A stretch of 64,000 nt of DNA from Bacteroidales bacterium (GTDB lineage: Bacteria > Bacteroidota > Bacteroidia > Bacteroidales > P3). Of the stretch, positions 5,492-36,619 are shown in pieces. Position 1 is the first letter of the stretch. Each line of letters starts with the position of its first letter. Where the stretch lies: contig JAFSPS010000007.1 in assembly GCA_017451385.1 (NCBI GenBank), positions 1 to 64,000 on the forward strand, read 5' to 3'. The translations under genes were made by a program, and so were the position numbers. The notes beneath the pieces are model-generated. The model ran no database searches, had not been told where the DNA came from, and worked only from the letters and a program-made list of their open reading frames with translations.

Positions 5492-5963
5492 AAAGCTCAT
5501 TTTTTTTGTTCACATGTTCCAACGATTTTGTGCCGAGGCGGCGTTCGCTGTCGTGGCTGGTCGGAATAGTACGACAATAGTTGAGCTATAAATCCTGTTA
5601 TTTGGATGCTGCATTGCTATGGCGGTGTAAATGTTTTTTGCACATAAACTTATCTGATGAAAACGTTTTTTGTTGTGATATGTTATTAACAAGATTGTAA
5701 TATGATGATGTGTTTATAACTTTTTGTAATTCTTTTAGTTTGTTAAAATATAGATGGTTATTAACAATTAAATGTGAACAATTATTGTTAATATTTTGTT
5801 GATAACTATTTGTATTTTATTGGAAAATTGTATTTTTGCAATGTGTTGTGTACTATCGCAACATAATGTAAGCACGAAATGAAAACGCCATAAACGGTTG
5901 AGAGACTGGTTTTTATGGAGTTGGTATGTAAAATGTAAAACAAAGAAACAAATACATCTAAAT
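5492..5963. other. 472-bp AT-rich intergenic region before the first giant gene
   Basis: No supported gene. The region becomes strongly AT-rich after about 5600. It contains one good Bacteroidetes-type promoter (5809-5838), leaving a leader of about 115-120 nt before the ATG at 5964. I see no stem-loop followed by a T-run that would clearly terminate tilS. Confidence 0.6.
5809..5838 (+). promoter_or_regulatory. Bacteroidetes-type promoter of the first giant gene
   Basis: TTTG at 5809-5812, 18 nt, then TATTTTTG at 5831-5838, matching the Bacteroidetes sigma-70 consensus (TTTG, about 19 nt, TAnnTTTG). Transcription would begin a few bases downstream, giving a leader of about 115-120 nt. Confidence 0.65.
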
Positions 5964-14891: not shown

Positions 14892-15800
14892 ATGAAAAAG
14901 CTCTTTGTACTATCGCTTTTCATCGTTCTTTTGATGCCTGCGTCCCAAGCTTCGGGCCCTTTTGTGGGTAGTTCTGTGGAGGTTGGCGGACATTTCGGTA
15001 TTGGTGCAATAATGCCTGTGGGTGCCATAGATGTGCTTTATACTCCGTCTTTTGCTGGCGGTTTCGACTTGTATTACACATATATGGCAAATCCCTATTT
15101 CGGTTTTACCACAGGTCTGAGTTTTCTGCGTCTCAATAGTTCGCTCTCTGGTCAGGACGTTGTTAGTACTTATCTTGGCGAGATGAAAATCGACCTGCCC
15201 TTTGAGGGTCTTGTGACGTCGCAGGTGCATTGTATTGGCACCACCACCACCGTCAAAGAGAGTTACCAACTCTCGTTCATTGAGATTCCGGCACTGCTCG
15301 CTATCCGCAATGGCAGGTGGTATTATGATTTGGGGTTGAAATTCGGCATCCCCATCAAGGCTAATGCCGATTATGAGTACGGCCGCACAGATTTCCTCGT
15401 CGATGAAATCTATCGTACGGGAACGGTCTTGGACGACCCTGTGCCGCAAGAGCCGGAGGCTGGCAGTCATGGCTCCTACGACCCGATGAAAGGCCGTTCG
15501 GCATCCATCTTCGTGCAGTGGTGTATGGAGATAGGCTTCTCTATCGACCTCGGCAGTTCCAGCGCCCTTTCGCTGGGAGCGTTCTTTGACTATGGTATGC
15601 ACGACGTTTCGCTCGACAATCCGCAGAATGCCGAACTGATGACCCTTAATGGTAGCAAGATAGAACAATATAATGGTGCTATCAATTCCAATATGATGAC
15701 CCATGTTCGCTACTACAAGGCCGGCATTCGATTGCACTTCAACTTCGGCTTCGGCTCCCATATAGGTGGCTCTGGTCGCAAATCCAAACGACTGATATAG
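14892..15800 (+). CDS. Outer-membrane beta-barrel protein, partner-type (first copy)
   Basis: The 302-aa protein has a Sec signal peptide (MKKLFVLSLFIVLLMP, cleavage near SQAS). The rest alternates short amphipathic strands, with Gly- and aromatic-rich segments such as FGFTTGLSFLRL and YYDLGLKFGIPI, and ends in strands YYKAGIRLHFNFGFG. This is the look of an 8-12-stranded outer-membrane barrel of the OmpA/PorT-like (OMP_b-brl) class. It is a clear paralogue of the product of 28829-29797: both share IGTT/VGTT, a 'V(K/R)E....(I/V)EIP.L' block, 'G.KF.IP', and '(I/V)D.(I/V)Y.TGT(V/L)LDD'. Each of the two genes directly follows or lies between giant T9SS cargo genes. A role in exporting or anchoring the giant proteins is an inference, by analogy with SprF for SprB. 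Confidence 0.72.
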   Translation: MKKLFVLSLFIVLLMPASQASGPFVGSSVEVGGHFGIGAIMPVGAIDVLYTPSFAGGFDLYYTYMANPYFGFTTGLSFLRLNSSLSGQDVVSTYLGEMKIDLPFEGLVTSQVHCIGTTTTVKESYQLSFIEIPALLAIRNGRWYYDLGLKFGIPIKANADYEYGRTDFLVDEIYRTGTVLDDPVPQEPEAGSHGSYDPMKGRSASIFVQWCMEIGFSIDLGSSSALSLGAFFDYGMHDVSLDNPQNAELMTLNGSKIEQYNGAINSNMMTHVRYYKAGIRLHFNFGFGSHIGGSGRKSKRLI

Positions 15801-24800: not shown

Positions 24801-27800
24801 GTGCGCTATCTCCACGAGGGCGATGCCACGCCGCTCTACACCTACAACTATCCGCAGGATGGCACCAGCAAGGAGTATTTTGTCACCATTGAGAATGGCG
24901 GTCCTACCTGCACGCTGCACGATAACTTCAACTTACATGTGGGTCATTCGTCTCCGCATACCTATATGCGCGACACCGCTTGCAACAGTTATGAGTGGTG
25001 GCATGGCAACCAGCGTGCCGGTCGCTTCGACATGTCAGGCGACTACACATACACCTTCACCAACAGTGAGGGATGCGACAGCACTGTGACTATGTATCTC
25101 GTCGTCCATCAGGGTGACACTACGGCAAATGATACTACGGTATGTAACCATTTTGAATGGCAGGGTCGCACTTATACTGACAATCGCACCATCGTCAGCT
25201 TCTACACCAACGACGATGGGTGTGCATCGGTCGATACGCTCCGCTTCGCCGTTTATCATTCCTCTACGGGCTACGAGAACAGGGTGGTGTGCGACAGTCT
25301 GCGCTGGGACTTCGATGGCCAACTCTACACACGCACGCGTGTCATCACGCAGCATGGCGTTGCCGCCAACGGCATCTGCGACAGCACCGTGGTGCTCGAC
25401 CTGCGCGTCAACCGCAGTGCCAGCCATCCCATCCACGTCAATGCCTGCGACAGCTATGTGTGGCACGACCATGGCAACTATGGTGAAATCCTTGAAGCCT
25501 CGGGTACTTATATCGGGGTGCCCTACAATACTGCCGAGGGTTGCCGCAGCGTCGATACGCTACACCTCTCAATCCGTAATAGCGCACACTCGCGAACCTC
25601 GCGTTCCGAGTGCGACACTGCCGAGTGGTTCGGCTCCTTCTATACCACGTCAGGCATGAAGGTGCATAACGACACTACGCTCAACGGATGTCCTAAACTC
25701 GATACCCTCGACCTCATAATCTTCCATAGCCGCAACACCGTCATTCCCGCTGTGGCATGCGACAGTTATGAATGGAACGGACAGACCTTCACCAACTCCG
25801 ATACGGTGACCTACAGCAGCTCTACGGTCAACGGATGTGACAGCAATGTGACGCTCATGCTCACCGTCAATCACAACACTAATAGCGTTGTGCCTCTCAC
25901 TGTCTGCGACAGCGTGACCTATCGCGGCACCTATTTCGCTACATCTGGCGTTTACCGCATAGATTATCTCACGCCGGAGGGCTGCCCAAGCTTCGACACC
26001 CTCAATCTTACGGTGAACTACAACACCAACTCACGTACAGACACCACAGTGTGCGACAGCTACACATGGCACGGCACGCAGTACACCACTTCGGGCACAT
26101 ACACTTATCAGTACACCTCGCTCCAGACGGGCTGTCCCAGTGTCGATACGCTTGTCCTTACGGTGAACTACAGTGCTCTGCGCCATGAGGTTGTCCATGC
26201 CTGTGACTCTTTCGTATGGCGCGATGGCAACACCTACACCGCCAGCACTTATGGCGATGCGTCGTATCATCTGCAGACACCTGCCAACTGCGACAGCATC
26301 ATACTGCTCGACCTCACTCTTGGTTATACCTCAGTCAATCCTACACCTATACGCCGTGAGGCATGCGATGTCTATAACTGGGTGTACACCATAGGACACA
26401 TGAACGGACGCACCTTTGTCGCCGACAGCACAGGCTACATAAACGGCATCACGCAGTCGGGCAACTACTACGCTCGCTTCTGTACTAATGCCAGCGGATG
26501 CGACTCGTTGCAGCATCTCGTGCTTGCTATGGGCTATCGCGACACTGTGGAGACTGCCGTTGCCGCTTGCGGACAGTATTCATACAATGGAATCACTTAT
26601 TCCAACACTACCGGACGCGACACCTCTCTGTGGGTCTATAATACCATCCGTCGCACATATATTGATGGATGCGACTCAACGACCCACATGAATATAGTTC
26701 TCTATCCGGTACGCGACAACAACCCCACGGAGCATGCCACCGCCTGCGACGGCTACACATGGAATGGCACGCGCTACTCTGCTTCGGGCAACTATGTCTA
26801 TGAGGGCGTTACGGTGCATGGCTGCGACAGTGCTGTACGTCTCATCCTCGTTGTCAATCGTAGCAACTATCGCACTGTGACTTACGACACTATATGCGAG
26901 CGCATAAACTGGGGCGGCAGGATACTCAATGAGAACGGTATCTATCGCGACACCCTGCATACCGTACAAGGATGCGACTCGGTGCTCACGCTCAACCTCA
27001 CTGTCTATCATCGTTCCTTCACCAGCCAGACGCGCGAAGTGTGCGACCAGTATGTGTGGCCTAACGATAACCTTGCTGACACGCTGCGTCGCAGCACCAC
27101 CGTATGGCGTACCACGTATCCCGATATGCAGGGATGCCAGCATGTAGATACGTTGCACCTCATCGTCAAGTACTCTTCTGACGATGTCGTGGAGCGTACC
27201 GTGTGCGACAGCATCCGCTGGTACAGCAACAGCAGCACGCGTGGAGCCTACTACACCCGTTCGGGCATCTACCGCTACAATGTGCCTACACGCAACAGCG
27301 TAGGATGCGATAGTACCAAGACTTTGTACCTCACCGTGCATCCGACCCTGCGCATCAGTACTGTTGTTACGCAGTGCGAGCCTCTGACATGGCACGGACG
27401 CACCTATACGGCATCTGTCAGCACTGTGCGCACGTTTGACTCCGTATATAGCGACGGCCAGACCTGCCGTGTTACCGATACGTTGCGCTTTGTGCGTACG
27501 GGCAGCGATGTCCTCACGGAGACCACTTCGCAGGCAGCTTGCGACAGCTTCTATTGGAGCCGCACCAACATGGTCTATTACGCTTCGGCACGTCTCTCAG
27601 ACACGGTGCGCAACGCCAACGGATGCGACAGCAGCATAGCGACCCTCGTGCTCACCATAGCTACATCCAATAGCAGCCGCACCGATACGGTCACATGCAG
27701 CCCCGTGGTATGGATGGGCTCCACCTACACCACCTCAGGCACCTACAGCAAGCGGGTACATACCTCCAGCGGATGCGATGATGTTCATACGCTCGTTCTG

Positions 27801-28658
27801 CATGGCGTATATATGGATACGCTGCCCGACATCGTGGCTTGCGAGAGCTACCTGTGGAATGGCACACGCTATGACACCGAGGGCATACATACGGCCGTCG
27901 CAACCCATAGCTCCATCTACGGATGCGACAGCAATATCTATCAGCCTGTGCGTATCATCAAGAGTCTGCGTGGCTCGCTCGATACGCTTGTCATGGCGGA
28001 GAGCTTCTACTGGGAGTCGCACCGCAAGACCTTCACGCAGGGCGGCCGCTACATCGACACCGTCGATTTCACCCCTGCCGCTCGTTGCGGCCGTATCGAC
28101 ACACTGCGGCTAAGCCTCTCCACGTCGCGCCTGCCCGTCATCGGCATCAACCAGTCGCACACGCTGCTCATGGTCAACCACTATCCTGATGGTGAGAACG
28201 GCGAGCGTGTGGATTTCGATGAGTATCGTTGGTATATCGACGGCCGTATAGTCAACGGCTCACGCGGTGCTGGCGACAGCTATTCCAACTCCGACTTCAG
28301 GTCGCTCGACGGTCACTACTACTATGTAGAGGTGCTGGTTGACAATGTATGGCTACGCTCCAACGTCATAGACCTCCGCCGTGGCGTGGGCATAGACGAT
28401 GTGCAGTCGTCGCTTGCCTTCTCGCTCTATCCTAACCCGATACGTAGCGGCAGCATGCTCAATGTAGTCGTTGAGGGCGAAGAGAATGTCGGCGATGCCA
28501 CTCTTGAGTTCTACGACCTGCAGGGACGCTCACTGATGAGTAGTCTCCTCCACGCCGCACAGACCACTGTCGAGGTGACTCTGCCGGCAGGCGTCTATAG
28601 CGTGCGTCTCACCACAACAGATGGTCGCAAAGCTGTGCGCCGTATCGTAGTACGATAG
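15858..28658 (+). CDS. Giant Cys-repeat surface protein with T9SS type A sorting domain (second copy)
   Basis: The 4266-aa product is a paralogue of the first giant. Translation could begin at 15858, 15861 or 15921; all give a signal peptide (core VLLRVAFVVVLFLSF, ending VSFAQ). A unique N-terminal region of about 190 residues precedes about 64 repeats by my count, each with paired Cys in 'CDSY.W' and 'GCDS' motifs. The repeats in roughly the last third (about 3050-3500) are the most regular. They are followed by an Ig-like domain (HTLLMVNHYPDGENGERV...), homologous to that of the first giant, and a sorting domain (LYPNPIRSG, FYDLQGRSL, LPAGVYSVRL, RRIVVR). The final repeat lacks its first Cys. 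It starts 57 bp after the first barrel gene, so the two could share a transcript. The predicted role is a very long disulfide-stabilised surface protein. Confidence 0.85.
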   Translation: MMLYYSTGKNKQSKALFFSSLMQHRVLLRVAFVVVLFLSFVPTVSFAQYTRPCDEQGATIENIGGNPVTIHESMSLSLCITLDSTLTYRESGYVNTPPVFEATSFPSSTQIKTIDIGSADDYGTCKHTKKLIATIYARNRPQPYPFAWCYDGVTNDMSIGVLSIHRGDVTDGQTLYNRVIAEEQPELGICAQPYDITLNIEPTPPAQSHDTMVCENIGSNMSGWSWHIIHGTFNKTVTPRYTYSSGRYIYDTVKIASVRGICDTLHYVQVYLTDVKFCRDTARFMAGSGVCDTFVWQRNPTFVYRGIGDITDNLTTTDKQCDINSAIHSDNSYLPYQNSWDDGQGNVITYANTMCDSVHRLELHIDNGLRDTLRPNECDTVRLLADRTIWNTDPTMAISAEQVFTSSMPLSSDSSIFVTNVTNGCRDTIYFDVTVRHSTDSTLVVTACEQYTWYVRDINVTADDSIEVGTWTYRNLFGDRRADTVGYQLPVNPAAPLLNAVGCDSIVSLHLTLGINDTTLSDDAMCLSRNSEYYWADRNRTYSDLPSEQSLVHLYDTVNGATNSFGFVGEAWWDATAFSCDMIYDMSLTLYSDSVVSEADADRAVACGSYEWRGNTVTEADTYYDTVALAVHGYCDSIYRLDVNVADNDTVERNEWDEVSSCTQYYWERAAQFYPPDVTSADNWIDGHPAMAAGAVDTFYFIKRGVGPLVDDGHGSTMRCDSVYILSLTTYDSVQRVLDTAWCEGGEPFTWLDGTLSASVMANLNGSRSDLLDSLAHFHGEMLPDDVCQSVFLARFNLLPTYNRDYHPQSVDGSDSIFCDFFEWQHTLDPSDPTNVTNTIIRYGSGPTYNDLLDSNFTVSSREAYASGVLGVEGCDSVNHLVFDYDVNFCDTRINDVVVDSTVCDKVVIASHGAGAHVTNLFTGAAFDVASSYELKVADRGSYIKGTPLYEVWDTIRNGSSNGVCDSISHFKVSFYYNVSDTLEAAFCDSTNTIYGAGLITKDTLVIYAWQSGNAPGMCDSIHYLSVKINYTKRDTLAPIYACDSMIWGHYDINSVPGTTWDLRTNPPTRSADGIWYTDIAAGEVVDSLKQENNTCDSLVYLTLQLSHHADVVYADTVACGFFEWYDNASSTNHLSLYLNETNHPIDTTATHTFRFGFENSSVRVGNNIGRCDSTVELTMHIYDNQYTMHDTAGCERVAIPGYAGGWITATDTVVYTYGSQQLPAIHAGTVACSTVTAYHVIVTHPSRTVYDTMVCEQVLDFMGSGVDFVYDYAAHNGDLRPDTIVYEWTHASLGGCYDNDTLKVVLVPNGRDTTFADTCDTYTWRSRGRGPYTVSGTDKYITRGVLPKQTYQRNNGSIVELQCDSISTLILTIRNSVASTLDTAVCGSFTWTDGDGHTYDTTNYDTDHQTTKGLPIDGPVSYKYAAAAANGCDSTVTLHLAINQAKRSVDRANRGSNLIICDSYEWNGRMYTESSHTVDSIVFAGGAADGCDSIVYLDLTMGHSSYDTIYLDSCQKVDWPLRRWFFENYRNMPGDSAVIYHSGTYEVHVPGSSEYHNVDYCDSIVTAVVTIRHHSLDNVAYADACDSVVWNGRIYRSSYVADDDSLKMVLSTIVPEGMQACDSVITLHPTIRRSSPRTDTVLYACGSVRWTNRWYDENGIFVITDSIYRHIEGRDTQYDTVHALNVESCDSAIYAVLNVLDTRRHMLTTPQYHPDHMSWFCDSVVWRGRVITETGIYEDTVFNATTIDGRQLCDSIYIFDAVVHHSSVKDSNIVSTGCDIYTWNNVPYYQSTVVDDTLPFQNEEGCDSIMRVNLTVRQSTRTVERDTACDTYVWTSSRWIRGLRNRDTIAHHTHADVTVAEFDTLTQAYINSADCESFDTLLLVLYPTDTTIVDTHACELFRWQASNAEHGTYINETFRDSVYAIRQSVNNAFGCMHYDSLALFIHRPQTEVLDTAVCDSINWHNEVRLARDTVAFYETGVRDQYGCHINLQISLRVYPTVRSTDAQQACRQYTWYDMADEYGIAPTFTASGVYHDTASTVYGCDSIVTLTLTIDTNAVASVTYDTICEGTTTYAWRIMRYGNEMPRRISIVEGQEHYVYNESWPDLANPNGCDTMAHLYLTTNSVARDTMTVDTCGVYRWRGGNDGRYDRSTTVSHIFEEQAVNGCDSIVTLVLNIGTPEITNTVEYACDTFTWVNRGHVVARYDESNVSGPIFRAADITTRRGDCPIIDSLELHIRFASHNTDTVRPIACDRYTWIPFEGFPSEEFSSPMPIATTARTMHRSYMQGCDTTVYLDLQMGYSQNRIDRLPAACDSFYWARGERWFYQNVGGDTVSYQSARNAYGCDTTVVINLVVNHSTPQALGLREECDSMVFTLGAWDTSFAQPGRINFSHGVNSNGCPVNYSVDLHLRYSHTLVTNEVLCQPYTWSVNNVNYIETTHETLRRRHTYAENCDTTFVLDLTIGSVTTGTTDTTVCDSIVWRGITYTRPTDETGRFLIRDTIHRANGRCDSVRRYRLFVNASQNVYHDTIVCDFYDWRGSHNTDGAFISEMRPGVSTSNGCDSTAFLRFHVNHSTTIDSVVAQACDTFFFAFNGTNYQYTAPVQREFLMEGGNSVGCDSIVRLDLQAVYNHSVGDSVVMLCNDANPNHSNVWNGALQTATHYETVRLPMLNQYGCDSLSRVHVVVHEATRGIDHRRVCDVSYRWVDGVRYHDDIDGTSPDAPSVISGIENIYGCDSIVYLDLVLEDTIRQPLNIEACNEYTWSSGNGQRYTQSTVRPYPTYAYHRGEGLCDSIVELRLTIHRSTYQPVYASSCDYYEWARNGHTYATTGTYTADYHNEWGCESTDTLHLTINSGQNMSDTVIACDRYVWHGRSYAVSDLGVGVTHRDIMHFNQDPSCRHTDTLTITLYRTLRYVASHAVCSQYTWQRPVLGDTLLTTSGEYTFSVYLDDDVCPSLFKLDLEVMEDYQRDFELSFCNDTTIVRYLHEGDATPLYTYNYPQDGTSKEYFVTIENGGPTCTLHDNFNLHVGHSSPHTYMRDTACNSYEWWHGNQRAGRFDMSGDYTYTFTNSEGCDSTVTMYLVVHQGDTTANDTTVCNHFEWQGRTYTDNRTIVSFYTNDDGCASVDTLRFAVYHSSTGYENRVVCDSLRWDFDGQLYTRTRVITQHGVAANGICDSTVVLDLRVNRSASHPIHVNACDSYVWHDHGNYGEILEASGTYIGVPYNTAEGCRSVDTLHLSIRNSAHSRTSRSECDTAEWFGSFYTTSGMKVHNDTTLNGCPKLDTLDLIIFHSRNTVIPAVACDSYEWNGQTFTNSDTVTYSSSTVNGCDSNVTLMLTVNHNTNSVVPLTVCDSVTYRGTYFATSGVYRIDYLTPEGCPSFDTLNLTVNYNTNSRTDTTVCDSYTWHGTQYTTSGTYTYQYTSLQTGCPSVDTLVLTVNYSALRHEVVHACDSFVWRDGNTYTASTYGDASYHLQTPANCDSIILLDLTLGYTSVNPTPIRREACDVYNWVYTIGHMNGRTFVADSTGYINGITQSGNYYARFCTNASGCDSLQHLVLAMGYRDTVETAVAACGQYSYNGITYSNTTGRDTSLWVYNTIRRTYIDGCDSTTHMNIVLYPVRDNNPTEHATACDGYTWNGTRYSASGNYVYEGVTVHGCDSAVRLILVVNRSNYRTVTYDTICERINWGGRILNENGIYRDTLHTVQGCDSVLTLNLTVYHRSFTSQTREVCDQYVWPNDNLADTLRRSTTVWRTTYPDMQGCQHVDTLHLIVKYSSDDVVERTVCDSIRWYSNSSTRGAYYTRSGIYRYNVPTRNSVGCDSTKTLYLTVHPTLRISTVVTQCEPLTWHGRTYTASVSTVRTFDSVYSDGQTCRVTDTLRFVRTGSDVLTETTSQAACDSFYWSRTNMVYYASARLSDTVRNANGCDSSIATLVLTIATSNSSRTDTVTCSPVVWMGSTYTTSGTYSKRVHTSSGCDDVHTLVLHGVYMDTLPDIVACESYLWNGTRYDTEGIHTAVATHSSIYGCDSNIYQPVRIIKSLRGSLDTLVMAESFYWESHRKTFTQGGRYIDTVDFTPAARCGRIDTLRLSLSTSRLPVIGINQSHTLLMVNHYPDGENGERVDFDEYRWYIDGRIVNGSRGAGDSYSNSDFRSLDGHYYYVEVLVDNVWLRSNVIDLRRGVGIDDVQSSLAFSLYPNPIRSGSMLNVVVEGEENVGDATLEFYDLQGRSLMSSLLHAAQTTVEVTLPAGVYSVRLTTTDGRKAVRRIVVR

Positions 28659-28666
28659 TTATCTCC

Positions 28667-28703
28667 AATCCAAGGTGAGCACCATGGCTCACCTTGGATT
28701 TTA
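28667..28703 (+). terminator. Rho-independent terminator after the second giant gene
   Basis: A perfect 14-bp inverted repeat (28667-28680 with 28687-28700) with a 6-nt loop ends in a short T-run. It starts 8 bp after the stop codon. Confidence 0.85.
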
Positions 28704-28828
28704 ATTGAAAGCGAATAGTAGAAAAGTATTATAAGGATGTGGCAATAACGCCCTCGCAAAAAAAATGTTTGTCGTTCACATGGCTATTTGCTGATAAATG
28801 AACACCACTTAACAATGCAAGTCCTGCA

Positions 28829-29797
28829 ATGAAAACAATCAACCATAATACCCCTGTACTTCGCAGTCTGGCTGTCGTCATGCTGACGTGTGTTGTCTTG
28901 TTCTCTTCTTTCAATGTCTCGGCAGAGCGGGGCAGCTCGTGGCGCAACACTTTCTCTGATTCCTATATCGGTGTCGGTCTGCGTGGCGGCCTGGCGGGGA
29001 TGACCATCTCCGGCGACCTCAAGACTACGACGCATCCCGGTTTCACCTACGGCCTCGACCTATGCTATATGGGCGAGATGGGGCGTTTCTATGGTTTCAT
29101 TGTTGGCATCAGCTACGTGGAGACCAATTTCTCTTTAGAGGCTTCCGATGTTAAGTCTGAATTTGACGGCATTTTGCGCTATGGCTCCTATGGTTACGGC
29201 GATGCCTTTGAACTTGAGGCACACTATGTAGGTACAACCTCTTCTGTACGCGAGGTGATGAAGGCGAATATTGTCGAGATACCGGTACTGTTCACCTTTG
29301 CACGCGATAATTTTTATTTGGGGGCTGGTGTCAAGTTTGCCATACCGTTCAATATGTCTTCGCGCTATACCGTGGGCGAGACATCGAAGATAATAGACCG
29401 TGTATATACCACGGGCACGCTCCTTGATGATGACCTTGCTCTCGATGCCGGAACCGTGCAGGGCTTTGATGGTCGCTACACCATCTTTGGCTCCAACGGC
29501 AAGATGGTCCCTGTTGCCGTCATGGCTGCTGTGGAGGTGGGCTATCGCATGCATTTTGGTATCAACAACAGCTTGCAGTTCTCGCTTTATGGCGAGTTCC
29601 CCCTCGGCTCTCTGTCGCTCAACAATGCCACAACCGACATGCTTGTCACCCTCGACGAAGAGGAGTTAAAATATCGTGGCATTGCTAATGCCGGCTCTAT
29701 AACGGGCCTCAACTATTTCAAATATGGTCTCCGCGTGCAGTATAATTTTGGCCTCGGCAAAGCCCCCCGCAGCGGACATCCTCTCCACATCTGGTAG
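28829..29797 (+). CDS. Outer-membrane beta-barrel protein, partner-type (second copy)
   Basis: The 322-aa protein has a signal peptide (hydrophobic stretch about residues 13-29, cleavage near VSAE) and a beta-barrel body (YIGVGLRGGLAG, YGFIVGISYVET, FYLGAGVKFAIPF, final strand YFKYGLRVQYNFGLG). It shares blocks with the 14892-15800 product along most of its length, so the two barrels are paralogues, as are the giants before them. A terminator separates it from the second giant gene, so it is probably expressed from its own promoter, which I could not identify with confidence. Its function is unknown; export, anchoring or assembly of the giant cargo is the best inference from position. Confidence 0.72.
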   Translation: MKTINHNTPVLRSLAVVMLTCVVLFSSFNVSAERGSSWRNTFSDSYIGVGLRGGLAGMTISGDLKTTTHPGFTYGLDLCYMGEMGRFYGFIVGISYVETNFSLEASDVKSEFDGILRYGSYGYGDAFELEAHYVGTTSSVREVMKANIVEIPVLFTFARDNFYLGAGVKFAIPFNMSSRYTVGETSKIIDRVYTTGTLLDDDLALDAGTVQGFDGRYTIFGSNGKMVPVAVMAAVEVGYRMHFGINNSLQFSLYGEFPLGSLSLNNATTDMLVTLDEEELKYRGIANAGSITGLNYFKYGLRVQYNFGLGKAPRSGHPLHIW

Positions 29798-29898
29798 TTT
29801 TCAGAAGAGAGCTCTATCCCCAATAGTGTCAAGCATTAGTATAATAGTGTGACGAGCTTATTTTTATGCTTTTATTTGCTGACTAACTATAAATAACT

Positions 29899-30636
29899 AT
29901 GAAAACGACAAGATTTTTTATTGCAGCATTGCTGCTCATGGCATCCTTTTTTGTTGTGGGATGCGGCAAGGAGTCGAATGAATCGGATGTTACTCCTTCG
30001 GATTCTATTCCTAATAATACGGAAAACCCTACTTCGGCCCCTATCTCCAATGACTATTGGGTGGACCTCGGGTTGCCGAGTGGCCTGCTGTGGGCTACGT
30101 GCAATGTGGGGGCTACTAAGCCCGAGGACTATGGCGACTACTTCGCTTGGGGCGAGACGCAGCCGAAGAGAACGTACACATGGGGAAATTACAAATACTA
30201 TCGTTCAGATGACAACGGAGATGGATTTACCAAGTACTGCCCAAAATCAAGCTATGGCTACAATGGTTATCATGACAACCTTTTTACCTTGCAGTCGTCC
30301 GATGATGCTGCAGCGGCAAACGTACCAGGTTCGAGGATGCCCACGCGAGCCGAATGGGAGGAGTTAGGAGAGAATTGCACATGGAAGTGGATAACGTTGA
30401 ATGGCGTGAACGGGATGTGCGTTACTGGACCGAGTGGCAAGTCCCTTTTCCTGCCTGCGGCAGGCAACCGCTTGGGCGATGAGACGGACGGCGTTGGCTA
30501 CGACGGCTACTACTGGTCTTCGTCGCTCAACGAGGACTACCCGCGCCTCGCGTGGTACCTGGACTTTTACTCGGACGGCCGCAGCATGCACTACTACAAC
30601 CGCACGTACGGGTTCTCTGTGCGTCCTGTTCGTTAG
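29899..30636 (+). CDS. FISUMP-domain lipoprotein with hypervariable C-terminus (array copy 1)
   Basis: The 245-aa product is a lipoprotein: the signal peptide MKTTRFFIAALLLMASFFV runs into lipobox VVGC (Cys22). After a Ser/Pro/Asn linker comes the FISUMP domain, from WVDLGLPSGLLWATCNVGA (about residue 54) through DYGDYFAWGE, MPTRAEWEEL and SLFLPAAG. The C-terminus (about residues 190-237) has the form YWSSS...AWYLDFYS...GFSVRPVR. This fold class (C-type-lectin-like) is a known DGR target class in Bacteroidetes. Codons that differ between the four array copies in this last section nearly all end in C. Copy 1 is the only array member with an intact lipobox, so it should be the surface-exposed, functional form. 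Its ligand is unknown. Confidence 0.82.
   Translation: MKTTRFFIAALLLMASFFVVGCGKESNESDVTPSDSIPNNTENPTSAPISNDYWVDLGLPSGLLWATCNVGATKPEDYGDYFAWGETQPKRTYTWGNYKYYRSDDNGDGFTKYCPKSSYGYNGYHDNLFTLQSSDDAAAANVPGSRMPTRAEWEELGENCTWKWITLNGVNGMCVTGPSGKSLFLPAAGNRLGDETDGVGYDGYYWSSSLNEDYPRLAWYLDFYSDGRSMHYYNRTYGFSVRPVR
30466..30609 (+). repeat. Putative DGR variable region, copy 1
   Basis: The region runs from the codon after LPAAG to the conserved GFSVRPVR block. Compared with the other three copies, differences sit in codons such as TAC, GAC, GGC, CGC, AGC, CAC and AAC. The shared codons (TGG TCT TCG TCG CTC, CCG, GCG TGG, CTG, TCG) mostly lack A. A 39-bp block identical in all four copies follows (30610-30648). 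Confidence 0.6.
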
Positions 30637-30682
30637 AACATTACCCTTTTGCTCCTCATTAGGCATCACGGACAGGAGAAAA

Positions 30683-30714
30683 CTGGCTGGCGCGGGCGCG
30701 CACGGAGTGCACCA
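30683..30714 (+). repeat. GC-rich 32-bp downstream element, copy A
   Basis: A 32-bp sequence starting CTGGCTGGCGCG is identical at 31579-31610 and 33243-33274. The flanks form an outer stem (AACTGGC ... GCCAGTT) followed by T-run 30729-30736, so the whole may act as a terminator. It is missing after copy 3. Confidence 0.65.
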
Positions 30715-30811
30715 GTCCTCGTCTGCCAGTTTTTTTCTCGACGTATAAAGTGCGGAAGAAGAAATTGTAACTATTTGACATTCTTTTTTTGCTGACTAAC
30801 TATAAATAATG

Positions 30812-31543
30812 ATGAAAACAACAAGATTTTTTGTTGCGGCATTGAAGTTTATTGAATCCTTCTTTATTGTAGGAGGTGGCAAGAAGTCGAAAGAATCGGA
30901 GGGTACTCCTTCGGATTCTATTCCTAATAATACAGAAAACCCTCCTTCAGACTCTATCTCCAATGACGATTGGGTGGACCTCGGGTTGCCGAGCGGTCTG
31001 TTGTGGGCTTCGCGCAATGTGGGGGCTACGAAGCCCGAGGACTATGGCGACTACTTCGCTTGGGGCGAGACGCAGCCGGAGGGTATGTACATAGGGCTAG
31101 ATTACAAATACCATCGTTCAGATGACAACGGAAGCGGATTTACCAAGTACTGTTCAGATTCATACTATGGCTACAATGGTTATCATGACAACCTTGTCTC
31201 CTTGCAGTCGTCCGACGATGCTGCTGCGGCAAACGTATCAGGCGCAAGGATGCCCACGCGAGCCGAATGGAAAGAGTTGAGAGATAATTGCACATGGAAG
31301 TGGATAAAGCTGAATGGCGTGAACGGGATGTGCGTTACTGGACCGAGTGGCAAGTCCCTTTTCTTGCCTGCGGCGGGCAGCCGCTTGGACGGTGAGACGA
31401 ACGGCGTTGGCGGCGACTACTGGTCTTCGTCGCTCTACGAGGTCACCCCGGACGACGCGTGGGGCCTGTACTTCTACTCGGACAGCCACGGCATGGACAG
31501 CTACTACCGCGGACTCGGGTTCTCTGTGCGTCCTGTTCGTTAG
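30812..31543 (+). CDS. FISUMP-domain protein lacking a lipobox (array copy 2)
   Basis: This 243-aa paralogue of copy 1 is reached from either ATG of an ATGATG (30809 or 30812). The N-terminus keeps MKTTRFF but reads VAALKFIESFFIVGGGKKS: the Leu-Leu-Leu-Met-Ala core of copy 1 is replaced by Leu-Lys-Phe-Ile-Glu, and the lipobox Cys by Gly. The protein is therefore unlikely to be exported and lipidated. The FISUMP domain is otherwise intact (DWVDLGLPSGLLWASRNVG, DYGDYFAWGE, MPTRAEWKEL, YWSSS, GFSVRPVR). The C-terminal variable part is two codons shorter before YWSSS than in copies 1, 3 and 4. It may be a silent sequence donor or a cytoplasmic relic. Confidence 0.72.
   Translation: MKTTRFFVAALKFIESFFIVGGGKKSKESEGTPSDSIPNNTENPPSDSISNDDWVDLGLPSGLLWASRNVGATKPEDYGDYFAWGETQPEGMYIGLDYKYHRSDDNGSGFTKYCSDSYYGYNGYHDNLVSLQSSDDAAAANVSGARMPTRAEWKELRDNCTWKWIKLNGVNGMCVTGPSGKSLFLPAAGSRLDGETNGVGGDYWSSSLYEVTPDDAWGLYFYSDSHGMDSYYRGLGFSVRPVR
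31379..31516 (+). repeat. Putative DGR variable region, copy 2
   Basis: Same position as in copy 1, two codons shorter before the YWSSS motif. Variable codons are again NNC (TAC, GTC, ACC, GAC, GGC, AGC, CAC, CTC), apart from one GGA. The conserved block at 31517-31555 follows. Confidence 0.6.
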
Positions 31544-31578
31544 AACATTACCCTTGCCCCAAACGGGCAGGGAAAAAG

Positions 31579-31610
31579 CTGGCTGGCGCGGGCGCGCACG
31601 GAGTGCACCA
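31579..31610 (+). repeat. GC-rich 32-bp downstream element, copy B
   Basis: Identical to 30683-30714. The flanking AAAAAGCTGGC...GCCAGTTTTTT bases make a terminator-like hairpin. Confidence 0.65.
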
Positions 31611-31705
31611 GTCCTCGTCTGCCAGTTTTTTCTCGACGTATAAAGTGCGGAAGAAGAAAATGTAACTATTTGACATTCTTTTTTGCTGACTAACTATAAA
31701 TAACG

Positions 31706-32443
31706 ATGAAAACGACAAGATTATTTATTGCGGCATTGAAGTTTATTGAATCCCTCTTTATTGTAGGAGGTGGCAAGAAGTCGAAAGAATCGGAAGGTAC
31801 TCCTTCGGATTCTATTCCTAATAATATAGAAAACCCTCCTTCGGCCCCTATCTCCAATGACGATTGGGTGGACCTCGGGTTGCCGAGCGGTCTGTTGTGG
31901 GCTTCGCGCAATGTGGGGGCTACGAAGCCCGAGGACTATGGCGACTACTTCGCTTGGGGCGAGACGCAGCCGAAGAGTACGTACACATGGGAAAATTATA
32001 AATACTATCGTCCTGATGACAACAGAGGCGAATATACCAAGTACTGCCCAAAATCAAGTTTTGGCTACAACGGTTATGTCGATAACCTTGTTACCTTGCA
32101 GTCGTCCGACGATGCTGCTGCGGCAAACGTATCAGGCGCAAGGATGCCCACGCGAGCCGAATGGGAGGAGTTAGAAGATAATTGCACATGGAAGTGGATA
32201 ACGCTGAACGGCGTGAACGGGATGTGCGTTACTGGACCGAGTGGCAAGTCCCTTTTCCTGCCTGCGGCAGGCGAACGCTGGGACGATGAGACGTACGGCG
32301 TTGGCAGCCGCGGCCTCTACTGGTCTTCGTCGCTCTTCGAGGACTACCCGAACGGCGCGTGGTACCTGGGCTTCGGCTCGGGCTTCCACTACGTGGACAA
32401 CGGCTACCGCGACTACGGGTTCTCTGTGCGTCCTGTTCGTTAG
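31706..32443 (+). CDS. FISUMP-domain protein lacking a lipobox (array copy 3)
   Basis: The 245-aa product shares the altered N-terminus of copy 2 (MKTTRLFIAALKFIESLFIVGGGKKS): charged Lys and Glu break the hydrophobic core, and Gly stands where copy 1 has the lipobox Cys. The FISUMP domain is complete, with DYGDYFAWGETQPK, MPTRAEWEEL, LFLPAAGERW, YWSSS and GFSVRPVR. In the C-terminal variable part it shows GLY, FEDYPNGAWYLGFGS and FHYVDNGYRDY instead of copy 1 residues. One ATG codon is changed to GTG, an A-to-G change. The leader before the ATG is nearly identical to those of copies 1 and 2. The GC-rich downstream element is absent, leaving only about 60 bp to copy 4. Confidence 0.72.
   Translation: MKTTRLFIAALKFIESLFIVGGGKKSKESEGTPSDSIPNNIENPPSAPISNDDWVDLGLPSGLLWASRNVGATKPEDYGDYFAWGETQPKSTYTWENYKYYRPDDNRGEYTKYCPKSSFGYNGYVDNLVTLQSSDDAAAANVSGARMPTRAEWEELEDNCTWKWITLNGVNGMCVTGPSGKSLFLPAAGERWDDETYGVGSRGLYWSSSLFEDYPNGAWYLGFGSGFHYVDNGYRDYGFSVRPVR
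32273..32416 (+). repeat. Putative DGR variable region, copy 3
   Basis: Variable codons include AGC, CGC, CTC, TTC, AAC, GGC, TAC, CAC and GAC, all NNC. One column reads GTG where the others have ATG. The conserved block at 32417-32455 follows. Confidence 0.6.
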
Positions 32444-32505
32444 AACATTACCCTTGCCCCACACTGGCATCACGGGCAATAACTAATAACTAATTATAAA
32501 TAACG

Positions 32506-33207
32506 ATGAAAACAACAAGATTTTTTGTTGCAGCGTTGAAGTTTATTGAATCCTTCTTTATTGTAGGAGGTGGCAAGAAGTCGAAAGAATCGGAGGGTAA
32601 TTCTTCCGATACTATCTCCAATGACGATTGGGTGGACCTCGGGTTGCCGAGCGGCCTGCTGTGGGCTACGTGCAATGTGGGGGCTACTAAGCCAGAGGAC
32701 TATGGTGACTACTTCGCTTGGGGCGAGATGCAGCCGAAGAGTGCGTACACAGATAATTACAAATACTATCGTTCAGATGGCAACGGAAGCGGATATACCA
32801 AGTATTGCACGCTATCAAGCGCTGGCTACAAAGGTTATCATGATAACCTTGTTACCTTGCAGTCCTCCGACGATGCTGCAGCGGCAAACGTATCAGGGTC
32901 AAGGATGCCCACGCGAGCCGAATGGGAGGAGTTGACAGATAATTGCACATGGAAGTGGATAACGCTGAATGGCGTGAAAGGATGGCGTGTTACTGGGCGG
33001 AATGGCAAGTCGATTTTCCTGCCTGCGGCAGGCGGCCGCTGGGGCGGTGTGACGAACGACGTTGGCCTCAGCGGCTACTACTGGTCTTCGTCGCTCTACG
33101 AGGACTACCCGGACTACGCGTGGTACCTGGACTTCTACTCGGGCTACCGCCGCATGAGCTACTACGACTACCGCATCTTCGGGTTCTCTGTGCGTCCTGT
33201 TCGTTAG
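32506..33207 (+). CDS. FISUMP-domain protein lacking a lipobox (array copy 4)
   Basis: The 233-aa product has the same altered N-terminus as copies 2 and 3 (MKTTRFFVAALKFIESFFI, then VGGGKKS) and a linker shortened by about 13 residues. The FISUMP domain is intact: DWVDLGLPSGLLWATCNVG, DYGDYFAWGEMQPK, MPTRAEWEEL, IFLPAAGGRW, YWSSS, GFSVRPVR. The variable part carries one extra codon compared with copy 1. Some central residues differ from the other copies (KGWRVTGRNGKS in place of NGMCVTGPSGKS), so it has diverged outside the hypervariable region too. Like copies 2 and 3 it is probably not a lipoprotein. Confidence 0.72.
   Translation: MKTTRFFVAALKFIESFFIVGGGKKSKESEGNSSDTISNDDWVDLGLPSGLLWATCNVGATKPEDYGDYFAWGEMQPKSAYTDNYKYYRSDGNGSGYTKYCTLSSAGYKGYHDNLVTLQSSDDAAAANVSGSRMPTRAEWEELTDNCTWKWITLNGVKGWRVTGRNGKSIFLPAAGGRWGGVTNDVGLSGYYWSSSLYEDYPDYAWYLDFYSGYRRMSYYDYRIFGFSVRPVR
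33034..33180 (+). repeat. Putative DGR variable region, copy 4
   Basis: Variable codons are CTC, AGC, TAC, GAC, GGC, CGC, ATC and TTC, again NNC, with one codon more than copy 1. The conserved block at 33181-33219 follows. Confidence 0.6.
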
Positions 33208-33242
33208 AACATTACCCTTGCCCCAAACGGACAGAGAAAAAA

Positions 33243-33274
33243 CTGGCTGGCGCGGGCGCGCACGGAGTGCACCA
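33243..33274 (+). repeat. GC-rich 32-bp downstream element, copy C
   Basis: Identical to the elements at 30683-30714 and 31579-31610, but the right flank has diverged (CATCCAGCCCGC) and the T-run is lost. Confidence 0.6.
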
Positions 33275-33401
33275 TCCAGCCCGCATCTGCCAACTGTTAC
33301 TCAAAGCAAACAAATCAAGATGACCGAGGTGAGGAGGAAGAAAACAAAAACGACAGGGCACAAATGCGTCATTTCCACCTTCATGTTTTTGAGCGGTAGG
33401 G

Positions 33402-34670
33402 CTACAGCCCTCGTCGCATCCAGTCTATGACTTTCGGAGTTATTGTTGTCAGCAGCAGGCTGACGGTTAATGCTGCCATGCCCCACAGTATGCTGTGGAT
33501 GATGCTGACGGTGACAAATAGAGCTATCATATAGATGATGGATAGCAGCAGGCGCACTCCGAAGTTGATAGAGCTGCGGAATTGGCTGTCCTCGATGGCG
33601 TGGTGCACGGCTATGTGCGTGGGCAGCAGGGGCAGGGGATAGCAGACGAGGAGAGTCAGCAATATGGTGCGTGTGAATGTTGGTATGAGCAAAAGGACAG
33701 CGGCAAGGATTGCTCCAATGCGTAGCAGGCGAGCTGTGGTCGAAGGAGGTTCTGCAAGGCGGGAGACGGAGGTGTGGTGCTGTGTGGCGTAGTTGCGTCG
33801 TCCGTGGGCAAAGGCGAGCAGGCGTTGCAGTTCGTCGGCATCGGTGGATGATGGTGCCGCTGCGGCAGCGCGTTCAAGAGCATCAAGGCGTTGTGCAATC
33901 TTTTGGCGTGCCACGAAGCGGTTGAAAGGCGTGTCGTTAATGTCGAGGCGTTGGCGTTCCTCGCGGTTAAGGAGGAGGCAGAGGTCGGCAAACTCGTCAT
34001 AATGCTCGTGGCTGTCGATGTTGTGCATCACGGCTTTCAGCCTTGTCGTGAGCTCGTCGCGCATAGCGTTGAGTGCCACGGGTTCGTCGTTGCTGGCGAT
34101 AGTCAGGAAAGGGCGCACATCTATCGGCTCGCCAACGTTGAGCACGGCATGGCTGTAGGGACGCTCGTAGTGGTCGAGGTCGATGCCGAGAGGTACGATA
34201 AACAGGGGAGCGTCGCCCATCTGGTGCTGGGTCTGCAGTGCAATGCGGAACATGCCTTTCACCAGTGGCAGCAGTTGGTGGCGGTCGTTGTGGCGTCCCT
34301 CTGCCATCATGCTCAGCGGGAAGCCGTCGAGCAGCACCTGTCGCGAGCGGTTGAAGGTATCCTCGTTGCGTGAGAGCGCTTTCAGCCCGTCGCGCCGGCG
34401 GAAAATAGGGAAGATTTTCAGGAAGTCGAAAAGGCGTGCCAGAGTAGGGTTCTCAAAGATGTCGCCTCGGCAGATGTGATAGACAGGGCCCGGGGTGAGC
34501 AGCATAATCAGCAGCGGCTCCATCATGCCGTTCTGATGGCATGGCGCAATGATATAGCCACCCTCTTGTGGCAGCCGTTCTGCGCCGCGGATGCTGACGG
34601 ATGCGTAGTGGCATCGGGTGGCATACTCTACCAGCGGACGGAGGGTGTTGTATAGTGCGTCGTTTGCCAT
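33402..34670 (-). CDS. Membrane acyltransferase, PlsC-like
   Basis: The 422-aa protein has an N-terminal glycerolipid acyltransferase domain. It has the acceptor motif PCHQNGMMEPL (His about residue 45), a variant of the HX4D box with one extra residue and Glu for Asp; related Bacteroidetes proteins often read NHQNxxMD. Later motifs are IFRRRDG and MMAEGRHNDRHQLLPLVKG, the latter corresponding to the E-G block that binds the phosphate. The C-terminal 130 residues contain about four hydrophobic helices (LRIGAILAAVLLLIPTF, LLTLLVCYPLPLL, LLLSIIYMIALFVTVSII, ILWGMAALTVSLLL). It probably makes phosphatidic acid or another acylated lipid at the inner membrane. It is divergent from the glycosyltransferase gene. 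A TATTTTTG -7 box lies at 34694-34701 on the minus strand. Confidence 0.8.
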   Translation of the reverse strand: MANDALYNTLRPLVEYATRCHYASVSIRGAERLPQEGGYIIAPCHQNGMMEPLLIMLLTPGPVYHICRGDIFENPTLARLFDFLKIFPIFRRRDGLKALSRNEDTFNRSRQVLLDGFPLSMMAEGRHNDRHQLLPLVKGMFRIALQTQHQMGDAPLFIVPLGIDLDHYERPYSHAVLNVGEPIDVRPFLTIASNDEPVALNAMRDELTTRLKAVMHNIDSHEHYDEFADLCLLLNREERQRLDINDTPFNRFVARQKIAQRLDALERAAAAAPSSTDADELQRLLAFAHGRRNYATQHHTSVSRLAEPPSTTARLLRIGAILAAVLLLIPTFTRTILLTLLVCYPLPLLPTHIAVHHAIEDSQFRSSINFGVRLLLSIIYMIALFVTVSIIHSILWGMAALTVSLLLTTITPKVIDWMRRGL

Positions 34671-34693
34671 GACATGCTTTTTTTTTGCGAGTG

Positions 34694-34701
34694 CAAAAAT
34701 A
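34694..34701 (-). promoter_or_regulatory. -7 box for the acyltransferase gene
   Basis: TATTTTTG on the minus strand matches TAnnTTTG and lies 23 bp before the ATG. The TTTG upstream is only 12 nt away, so the -33 element is unclear. Confidence 0.4.
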
Positions 34702-34766
34702 CTACTTTTATTTCAAATTGTTGATAAAACACTTATCGTTATACTGCGTATATCAGTGTAAATTGT

Positions 34767-34774
34767 TACATTTG
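34767..34774 (+). promoter_or_regulatory. -7 box for the glycosyltransferase-sigma cluster
   Basis: TACATTTG matches TAnnTTTG, 25 bp before the ATG at 34800. No convincing -33 box is found at 19-20 nt. Confidence 0.4.
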
Positions 34775-34799
34775 CAATGCTGTAAATGCATCTTGAAAT

Positions 34800-35972
34800 A
34801 TGGATTTTGCACACCTACTAACTGATACTTATGCTGTTGTGGCGTTGTCTGTCGCTATGCTGGCACTCATATACCTCGCCATATACTACGGTCTCACGTT
34901 CCTTAAAATAGGACTAAAGTCTAAGAAGTATGCACCGGTCGATGATGAATCTGAGGATGATATGCAGTTTGCTGAGGGCTGCCCATCAACAACGGTAGTC
35001 ATGGTGGCGCATAACAATGCGCAGTCTATGCGTGAGCACATGCCGAATATTCTTGTCCAGAATGTATATGACTATGAGATTATCGTTGTAGATTACCATA
35101 GTGTTGACGATACCAATTTCGTGATACAGGTATGCTCTGCGGACTATCCTAACCTCAAGTGTATCAGCATGCAGAACGATGTCAATTTCTTTCAGGGCAA
35201 GAAATATCCGCTTTCTATGGGCATACGTTCAGCTACTGGCGAGGTAGTGCTGCTCACCGACCCCGACTGCGAGCCAATCCATTACAGCTGGGTGCAGCAC
35301 ATGGCGGAACCATTTACCAATAGCAATATACAGATGGTGCTCGGCGTGACACGCCTGCGCACCAAGCACAACCTCTTGGGGGCTTTGCAGCAGTACCATA
35401 ACATGGCCTATAGCTGCAGTTTCCTCTCGTCAGCCCTCATGGGGCATCCTTATACCGGCATGGGCACCAATATGGCTCTTCGTCGCTCCTTCTTCTTTGA
35501 GAGAGATGGATTTATCAACCACTATATAGAACCTGCTGGTGCTGATGATATATTCGTCAACCGCAATGCGACCAAGACCAACACGGCGGTATGCCTTGAC
35601 CCCAAGGCAGCCGTGACGACAGAAGGGGCTTTCTCATTCTTCACATGGCGTTACCAGCGTCGTCAGATGTATTCCACCCGATGCTACTACAGCTTGATGC
35701 AGCGTCTGCGTCTTGTCCTGCGCCCGCTCATGGTGATGGTGTTCTATCTGGCGTGTGTGGTGATGTTTTTGCTGCCGTCGGTGCCGTGGGTTATTCCCGT
35801 AGCTCTGTTGCTGCTCAAGGTGGTATGGCAAATAGTGTGTGTGGGCTATGCGCAGTCGCTCTTCGCCCTACGCAACTATCATTGGTTCGCGCCATTGCTG
35901 GAACTTTATTTTGTGTTTTCAAATACTTTTTTGAGTATTATTTCGTTACATCCTAAAAGATGCAACCCGTAG
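34800..35972 (+). CDS. Family 2 glycosyltransferase, membrane-anchored
   Basis: The 390-aa protein has an N-terminal transmembrane helix (about residues 15-37), a GT-A domain and two or three C-terminal helices (RLVLRPLMVMVFYLACVVMFLL, IPVALLLLKVVWQIV). In the GT domain, TTVVMVAHNNAQS begins the nucleotide-binding fold, VVDYHSVDDT is the first Asp region, LLTDPDCEP is the DxD-type metal site, and QRRQM is a Q-x-x-R-W-like motif. The combination fits a processive or lipid-linked sugar transferase of GT2 at the inner membrane; donor and acceptor are unknown. The last 13 bp overlap the sigma-factor gene, so the two are probably translated together. Confidence 0.85.
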   Translation: MDFAHLLTDTYAVVALSVAMLALIYLAIYYGLTFLKIGLKSKKYAPVDDESEDDMQFAEGCPSTTVVMVAHNNAQSMREHMPNILVQNVYDYEIIVVDYHSVDDTNFVIQVCSADYPNLKCISMQNDVNFFQGKKYPLSMGIRSATGEVVLLTDPDCEPIHYSWVQHMAEPFTNSNIQMVLGVTRLRTKHNLLGALQQYHNMAYSCSFLSSALMGHPYTGMGTNMALRRSFFFERDGFINHYIEPAGADDIFVNRNATKTNTAVCLDPKAAVTTEGAFSFFTWRYQRRQMYSTRCYYSLMQRLRLVLRPLMVMVFYLACVVMFLLPSVPWVIPVALLLLKVVWQIVCVGYAQSLFALRNYHWFAPLLELYFVFSNTFLSIISLHPKRCNP

Positions 35973-36619
35973 TGACTTGTAACGAAAATAGCTCTTTGCC
36001 CGAGGGTCGTATAGTCGATGAGTCTAAACTCATGACTGAGAAGGCGCGTCGCGACTACAAGTTGGTCCGTCTTGCGCTTCACGAAGGCGACGAGTCGGCC
36101 TATGCCAAGCTCCTCAAGCTCTATAAGGAGCCTTTGTTCCAGATGCTCTACAAGATGATAGGCAATGTCGATGAGGCCGACGACCTCACTATGGAGACCT
36201 TTGGCAAGGCTTTCTGCCAGTTGGACCGCTACACTCCTACCAATGCTTTCAGCACGTGGCTCTTCTCCATAGGCTCCAACTGTTGCATAGACCTTATCCG
36301 TCGTCGTCGTCTGCAGACAGTCTCTATGTCGTCCTTCACCGATAGTGACGACGAGGTCTATGAGCTGCCCATGCCGTCCAACAGTCCTACGCCCGAAGAG
36401 GAGGTGATAGCCTCGCAGCGCGCGGTGCGTATGCGTGATGTCATCAGCCAGCTGAAGCCTGCCTACCGTCGAGTGATAGAGATGCGCTATTTTGAGGAGT
36501 TGAGCTATGAGGAGATAGCCGAGCGGCTACAGTTGCCTATGGGTACCGTGAAAGTGCACCTGCTGCGTGCCCGTCAGCTGTTGGCAAGCATCATAGGCAG
36601 CCAGAGTGAGCCTATATGA
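35960..36619 (+). CDS. ECF-type RNA polymerase sigma factor
   Basis: This 219-aa protein has region 2 (DYKLVRLALHEGDESAYAKL, YKMIGNVDEADDLTMETF) and region 4 (QLKPAYRRVIEMRYFEELSYEEIAERLQLPMGTVKVHLLRARQLL) of the sigma-70 ECF group, joined by an acidic Ser-rich linker (about residues 120-150). No anti-sigma gene is adjacent. The gene begins inside the end of the glycosyltransferase gene and is followed 26 bp later by an outer-membrane barrel gene, so the three may form one operon. In P. gingivalis an ECF factor (SigP) drives T9SS genes. Whether this one has a similar role cannot be told from the sequence. Confidence 0.9.
   Translation: MQPVVTCNENSSLPEGRIVDESKLMTEKARRDYKLVRLALHEGDESAYAKLLKLYKEPLFQMLYKMIGNVDEADDLTMETFGKAFCQLDRYTPTNAFSTWLFSIGSNCCIDLIRRRRLQTVSMSSFTDSDDEVYELPMPSNSPTPEEEVIASQRAVRMRDVISQLKPAYRRVIEMRYFEELSYEEIAERLQLPMGTVKVHLLRARQLLASIIGSQSEPI

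Follow-up and report, generated by a model that had tools for sequence, protein, structure and literature searches.

Can genes be recognised as targets of a diversity-generating retroelement (DGR) when its reverse transcriptase (RT) and template repeat (TR) are not found? The question is raised by four tandem genes, w1–w4, in a 64,000-nucleotide stretch of a Bacteroidales bacterium (GTDB P3; GenBank assembly GCA_017451385.1, contig JAFSPS010000007.1), which we call the window and which corresponds to C20:1-64000 of an assembly (G000) of 2.57 Mb in 54 contigs, 94.5% complete. An initial annotation, made from the letters alone, had read the 3′ ends of these genes as bearing the adenine-mutagenesis signature of a DGR. 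This reading is supported here by a column-by-column match between the variable codons of the four genes and the TRs of congeners, which lie beside genes of the same family. We conclude that w1–w4 are very probably paralogous FISUMP/Lcl_C (DUF1566)-type surface lipoproteins with C-terminal DGR variable regions (VRs).

Codon pattern in the variable block

Re-alignment of the w1–w4 codons reproduced the counts of the initial annotation exactly. Between YWSSS and GFSVRPVR, 19 codon columns differ in amino acid; every copy has an NNC codon in 17 of them, the other two being an ATG/GTG column and one mixed column (ACG/GGA/GAC/ATC), and TAC and GAG are the only shared codons of this stretch with an A. 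The VR coordinates of that annotation take in a further ten variable columns upstream. Of the resulting 29 variable columns in the block, 23 have NNC in every copy, and the third bases of the 29 comprise 95 C, 13 G, 4 T and 2 A. Third bases are mixed elsewhere in the same genes, again as had been claimed: of the codons for Y, D, N, H, F and C, 61 end in C and 2 in T within the variable columns, whereas outside them 87 end in C and 97 in T (Fisher 4e-14, a value that is too small because the gene copies are related, though the effect is still large). In all four genes the VR occupies the 3′ end, up to the stop codon, and all four reading frames are intact.

The variable block and the upstream parts of the genes differ in opposite ways. 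Summed over the six window pairs, third bases differ in 11 of 330 codons in the block versus 108 of 777 upstream. The genome holds three more targets of the same family, c38a and c38b on contig C38 and c30 on contig C30, and the clearest comparison is between w4 and the unlinked c38a: at codon positions 1 and 2 they differ at 33 of 114 sites in the block versus 21 of 258 upstream, while at third bases they differ at none of 57 in the block versus 19 of 129 upstream. Pairs that include c38b are less clear (third bases 3–5 of 54–57 in the VR versus 15–24 of 129–130 upstream), as is w1 against c38a (2 of 56 versus 8 of 130). At the level of sequence, these counts establish that at least five genes (w1–w4 and c38a) had their VRs rewritten after their upstream parts diverged, from what we take to be one or nearly the same template, while for c38b such rewriting after divergence is less clear.

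Templates of related species predict the variable columns

We compared the window with a genus set of 120 genomes, G000 counted in. The most informative congener, G050, carries on its contig C37 (locus L091) a cassette with, in order, a variable gene, a 178-aa MutS_I-like accessory gene, a 196-nt TR and an RT that matches the RT of Bacteroides phage F2 at 36.5% (E 3e-58). VRs on four G050 contigs (C37, C26, C6 and C20) differ from the TR core at 27, 29, 23 and 30 of 48 adenines, respectively, and at 0 of 96 other sites each, giving a total of 109 changed adenines of 192 versus 0 of 384 other core sites; this total excludes a divergent fifth VR on G050 contig C42, which over the full TR has 29 changes at 51 adenines and 30 at 145 other sites. 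Since the four VRs lie on four contigs, the G050 element most likely acts in trans. We regard G050 as holding a complete DGR, with RT, TR, VR, accessory and A-restricted change all present, the accessory match to MutS_I (PF01624) being weak (E 7e-4, 20.2 bits) and just below the Pfam cut-off of 20.6. Congener G028 has the same layout, and its VRs differ from its TR at 32 of 51 adenines and 3 of 99 other sites beside the cassette, and at 20 of 51 and 2 of 99 on another contig. Templates with 14–19 AAY codons at the variable columns were found in G027, G028, G042, G050, G059, G070 and G105. In G105 the cassette is broken at the TR, where contig C27 ends within the template beside the RT. On another G105 contig, C36 (L140:1138-1326), a repeat behind an accessory gene is template-like in its first half, with AAC codons, and variable-like in its second half (10 of 19 AAY); it is either an assembly chimera or a real hybrid.

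Although these templates belong to other species and are not the window's own, their adenines mark the sites that vary among w1–w4. Measured against the G050 template, 40 of 47 adenine sites vary versus 8 of 133 other sites, and against the G028 template 38 of 48 versus 10 of 132; the Fisher values (1e-24 and 1e-20) ignore kinship, and it is the proportions that carry the point. All AAY codons at gap-free alignment positions, 18 of 18 in the G050 template and 20 of 20 in the G028 template, fall on columns that are variable in the window. The lengths of the VRs also differ by whole codons: w2 is two codons short, and the stretch from ATG to CGC has five codons in w4 versus four in w1–w3 and in both templates. 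We read these changes as possible slippage or loss within an AAC-rich template.

The same columns can be read in other genes. At the template-AAC columns, NNC codons occupy 19 of 19 positions in c38a, 17 of 19 in c38b and 16 of 19 in c30. FISUMP-like genes taken as non-targets lack the pattern, with 8 of 19 (contig C4) and 10 of 18 (C38:43-53 kb) in G000, and 5 of 19 and 6 of 19 in L029 and 6 of 19 in L031, whose kinship is not stated; L030 gave no row. The initial annotation had held that a DGR would be contradicted by related strains in which the third base of the variable codons is unrestricted. Among the 33 congeners with a row this was mostly not what we saw, as 24 have at least one VR with at least 15 NNC codons at 18–19 template-AAC columns; in the remaining nine every row has only 10–14 NNC codons (one row covering 15 columns).

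Targets and cassettes in the genome and the genus

A DNA search of G000 with the w4 VR gave 22 hits at E<=10. The nine with E<0.01 were all coding VRs (w1–w4, c38a, c38b, c30 and two short hits on contig C10), and four loci of the 13 weaker hits were inspected. The C10 hits belong to a long repeat protein (C10:3-3101, L026) with two FISUMP-like domains, which is cut by the contig start such that C10 begins inside its target gene. Compared with each other, its two domains differ at 29 of 126 positions 1 and 2 and at 1 of 63 third positions; immediately upstream the corresponding counts are 19 of 200 and 22 of 100. Of the two-fold codons, 41 end in C and 2 in T in the two domain stretches, and 137 in C and 112 in T elsewhere in the frame. 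By this codon pattern, the protein probably represents a further, second family of DGR targets, with a different template and with two variable domains in one protein. Two other contig ends, C30:77608-77689 and C46:144087-144168, are identical over 82 bp, which probably belong to the end of an insertion element that failed to assemble.

Across the 120 genomes, targets and cassettes are distributed differently. An RVT_1 match occurs in 46 genomes and a VR-like DNA match in 47, and an RT match of at least 250 aa to the G050 RT occurs in 11 (G011, G017, G023, G027, G028, G036, G042, G050, G059, G070 and G105). Among the 47 VR-bearing genomes, six have such an RT match and 41 do not; 38 have no match to the G050 RT at E<=1e-5, and 28 have no RVT_1 match of any kind. 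Restricting the count to the 30 VR-bearing genomes of good quality (completeness of 90% or more, contamination of 5% or less) again leaves six with the RT match and 24 without it, 23 having none at E<=1e-5 and 17 no RVT_1 match.

VRs were also compared between pairs of species. In two pairs without an RVT_1 match it is nearly unchanged, with one silent difference between G096 and G073 and three differences between G007 and G076. In a third pair, G113 and G116 (L077 and L078), the target VR differs at 8/60, 11/60 and 19/57 sites in 60-base windows, while flanking windows differ at 0–7 of 50–60 sites (most at 0–5 of ~60, with up to 12/60 at the edge) and the sequence more than ~480 bases upstream cannot be aligned; no DGR RT match was found in either genome. 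Since third-base changes occur in this VR too, paralogue exchange is possible there.

3′ end, hairpin and export signal

The 24-nt end of the VR is identical in w1–w4. A candidate hairpin, TGCCC-N5-GGGCA, follows 11 nt past the stop codon in w2, c38a and c38b; w3 has a version with a longer loop. The hairpin also lies 4–11 nt past the stop in G007, G039, G113, G116 and G117, making nine of 31 stretches, one of the 31 being the stretch behind the G059 template. In phage DGRs an IMH-like (initiation of mutagenic homing) constant 3′ end is accompanied by a GC-rich hairpin with a stem of 7–10 bp and a 4-nt loop, 4–34 bp downstream (PMC3240598). Compared with that description, the perfect stem here is 5 bp and the loop 5 nt, while the distance is right in w2, c38a and c38b.

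The lipobox Cys is kept in w1, c38a, c38b and c30. The lipobox pattern is matched by 14 of 21 N-termini, the misses being w2–w4, L065 and L079 (where the Cys is present), and L069 and L077 (wrong start). The three genes w2–w4 (30809-33207) have a common N-terminus that lacks the lipobox Cys and has K and E within its hydrophobic stretch, their frames being intact. For this reason lipoprotein export of w2–w4 is doubtful, and their VRs were rewritten despite the missing Cys.

Origin of the pattern and fate of the cassette

What sequence comparison establishes is the base pattern, the match to congener templates and the same process on four G050 contigs. To account for these, an AAC-rich TR would have been copied by an error-prone RT that misreads template adenines, and the cDNA would then have replaced the 3′ ends of several target genes, such that the first two bases of each AAC codon were randomised and almost all other bases kept the template letter. 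We infer that a cassette of the same kind as in G050 (RT, MutS_I-like accessory and TR) rewrote the window genes in trans.

Several observations weigh against this reading. The search of the rest of the genome that the initial annotation had called for, naming the lack of both RT and TR as evidence against its proposal, found no DGR-type RT or TR in the assembly: neither the VR DNA search nor a TR pattern search (0 matches) gave a template, and nothing matched the G050 RT at E<=1e-5. Nor was there a match in G000 to the G050 MutS_I-like (MSL-like) accessory; HRDC was not searched for. A bAvd match on contig C35 was set aside at 21.7 bits against a cut-off of 40, with unrelated neighbours and no RT near, and appears by eye to be a stand-alone four-helix protein. 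The adenine rule is broken at a few sites (a TTG/TGG column, GAA, ACG, GGA and TTT/TTC); the cassette-bearing G059 (13 of 19 NNC) and G070 (12 of 18) are among the nine NNC-poor congeners, and the G059 VR follows its template less well, with changes at 27 of 50 adenines and at 17 of 94 other sites. The lipobox Cys is missing in w2–w4. Copies of the hairpin in w1, w4 and c30 are degenerate, and z<-2 is reached by the folding scores of 7 of 31 stretches versus 7 of 61 other open reading frames (ORFs) (median -1.1 versus -0.26); because these scores barely exceed the controls, the hairpin is a lead and not a result. Finally, no close sister genome was found, the best DNA match to the neighbouring genes being 72% over 792 bases (G078), so no change over time could be observed. 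The missing RT and TR do not refute a DGR origin, because the templates of other species predict the variable columns. The only RVT_1 match in G000, a 678-aa AbiP2-like (DRT) RT on contig C49 (L001:1081-3117; PADLOC AbiP2 E 6e-155), was considered as the missing enzyme and judged unlikely in view of its AbiP2 match and since the VR search gave no hit on C49.

Could the pattern have arisen without any retroelement, through diversifying selection on binding residues combined with a preference for C-ending codons and exchange between paralogues? Residues such as Y, D, G, S, N, R and H are typical of binding faces, and all seven have NNC codons. We nevertheless consider this very improbable. Third bases are mixed elsewhere in the same genes, the adenines of congener TRs predict the variable sites with no non-adenine change at 384 sites in the four G050 VRs, and paralogue exchange would homogenise every position rather than the non-adenine ones alone.

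Assuming a DGR origin, the absence of the cassette from the assembly is most likely due to loss, and otherwise to a gap. Loss from the lineage, which would leave the genes as orphan, frozen targets, has in our view about an even chance of being correct. It is favoured over a gap because few VR-bearing genomes hold an RT (41 of 47 lack the long match, 24 of 30 at good quality), because the RT-free pairs G096/G073 and G007/G076 keep nearly the same VR, and because Treponema denticola has leftover targets without RT or TR in eight of the isolates listed in PMC4891356; the degenerate hairpin in w1 and w4 is also consistent with it. The loss cannot be old, since the third bases of the window VRs are almost intact, and the genus counts are to be read with caution because some of the 47 genomes are counted on short matches that are perhaps not genuine VRs, and because the other RTs, present in 13 of the 47, were classified in G000 only (AbiP2-like). 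That the organism has the cassette and assembly or binning missed it is a tentative, somewhat less than even possibility. It is kept in play by the G105 template cut at a contig end, together with the half-template repeat on G105 contig C36, and by the repeat common to the ends of C30 and C46, the c30 target lying 145 bp from that contig end; C10, too, starts inside its target gene, and the assembly, in 54 contigs, is 94.5% complete. Gaps alone hardly explain why the RT is missing in 24 of 30 good-quality VR-bearing genomes, and the DNA search at E<=10 would probably have picked up any sizeable TR fragment at a contig end. It is quite unlikely that RT and template are only intermittently present, carried by a mobile element or prophage and acting in trans on targets in the chromosome. 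The cassettes on G042 contig C17 and G070 contig C27 adjoin genes that look phage-like by eye (no family scan), but the closest templates, those of G050 and G028, are not of this type. A phage-borne cassette close to the window was rejected, as viral_contigs holds no target relative and no exact match to the TR pattern; phage and plasmid records hold only distant target relatives (6 and 1, respectively), matched almost wholly outside the VR.

A broader picture, which we offer as speculative and rather unlikely to hold in full, is that in this genus chromosomal target arrays persist as long-lived substrates, while the cassette is lost and acquired anew many times or arrives temporarily on mobile DNA. 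Between such visits the repertoire would stay frozen; with a cassette present it would be rewritten wholesale, including copies that have lost their lipoprotein signal.

Features of the locus

The four tandem ORFs are intact as the initial annotation had placed them, while the FISUMP name it gave them falls below curated cut-offs: Lcl_C (PF07603) matches all four at 28.2–34.5 bits against 34.9, and TIGR02145 matches two of the four at 25.4 and 23.2 bits against 41.65. A sequence search of the PDB with the target gave no match at E<=0.01, and structure comparison of a low-confidence model gave weak matches only, among them intimin, which has a lectin-like domain; DGR variable proteins and further C-type-lectin entries were not among the matches listed. 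An Rfam scan of 28500-36000 gave nothing at gathering score.

Features of the w1–w4 locus in window coordinates
Feature	Coordinates	Strand	Basis
w1, FISUMP/Lcl_C-like lipoprotein gene with lipobox Cys, putative DGR target	29899..30636	+	ORF, domain match, N-terminus
w2, paralogue without lipobox Cys, putative DGR target	30809..31543	+	ORF, domain match, N-terminus
w3, paralogue without lipobox Cys, putative DGR target	31706..32443	+	ORF, domain match, N-terminus
w4, paralogue without lipobox Cys, putative DGR target	32506..33207	+	ORF, domain match, N-terminus
VR of w1 (hypervariable block)	30466..30609	+	Codon alignment
VR of w2, two codons shorter than other copies	31379..31516	+	Codon alignment
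VR of w3	32273..32416	+	Codon alignment
VR of w4, longer by one codon where the G050 and G028 templates read AAC x4	33034..33180	+	Codon alignment
Invariant 24-nt 3′ end of w1 VR, candidate IMH-like end	30610..30633	+	Identical in 4/4 copies; aligns with TR 3′ end
Same invariant 24-nt end, w2	31517..31540	+	Identity across four copies
Same invariant 24-nt end, w3	32417..32440	+	Identity across four copies
Same invariant 24-nt end, w4	33181..33204	+	Identity across four copies
Candidate target hairpin TGCCC-N5-GGGCA, 11 nt past w2 stop codon	31555..31569	+	Suggestive only

Upstream of the array the window contains two giant ORFs of 2827 aa (5898-14381) and 4266 aa (15858-28658), each followed by an ORF of ~300 aa (14892-15800 and 28829-29797); the 4266-aa ORF contains many CDSxxW-type repeats, judged by eye.

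Comparison with known systems

These genes show that DGR targets can be recognised by codon pattern alone and confirmed with a congener template when the cassette is not found. The genus offers cassette-bearing and apparently cassette-free species, frozen and changed pairs, and genomes with several targets, such that the gain and loss of targeted hypermutation and the fate of a repertoire after loss should be directly traceable. It is this genus-wide picture, with many targets and few cassettes, that comes closest to novelty. In the library searched, no paper joins 'diversity-generating retroelement' with 'FISUMP' by name.

FISUMP-type domains were named as known DGR targets in the initial annotation, and rightly so, as FISUMP and DUF1566 are both established in that role (PMC4159848, PMC6642488, PMC8143477). 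Among human-microbiome DGRs DUF1566 is the commonest target domain, with 47 proteins, and Fib_succ_major accounts for nine (Ye 2014, PMC4159848). The window genes resemble those systems in the type of target domain, the C-terminal VR and the A-restricted change; unlike them, where the RT/TR context was part of detection, they are seen without it in the assembly. In T. denticola up to seven targets, many of them lipoproteins, lie remote from the core, and 8 of 17 isolates have targets but no RT or TR, which were read as leftovers (PMC4891356); the targets there are of the FGE-sulfatase type, whereas here they form a FISUMP/Lcl_C tandem array with unlinked copies. MSL (PF01624) is a known DGR accessory protein (PMC10053308), and the G050 accessory, placed between variable gene and TR, matches that family weakly; it was found in congeners and not in G000. 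Bacteroides phage F2 carries the Bacuni phage DGR (PMC8143477), whose RT is homologous to that of G050, although that DGR is phage-borne with a putative phage tail target. The target domain, the MSL accessory and both remote and left-over targets are all known already, and to these systems the window genes add a member.

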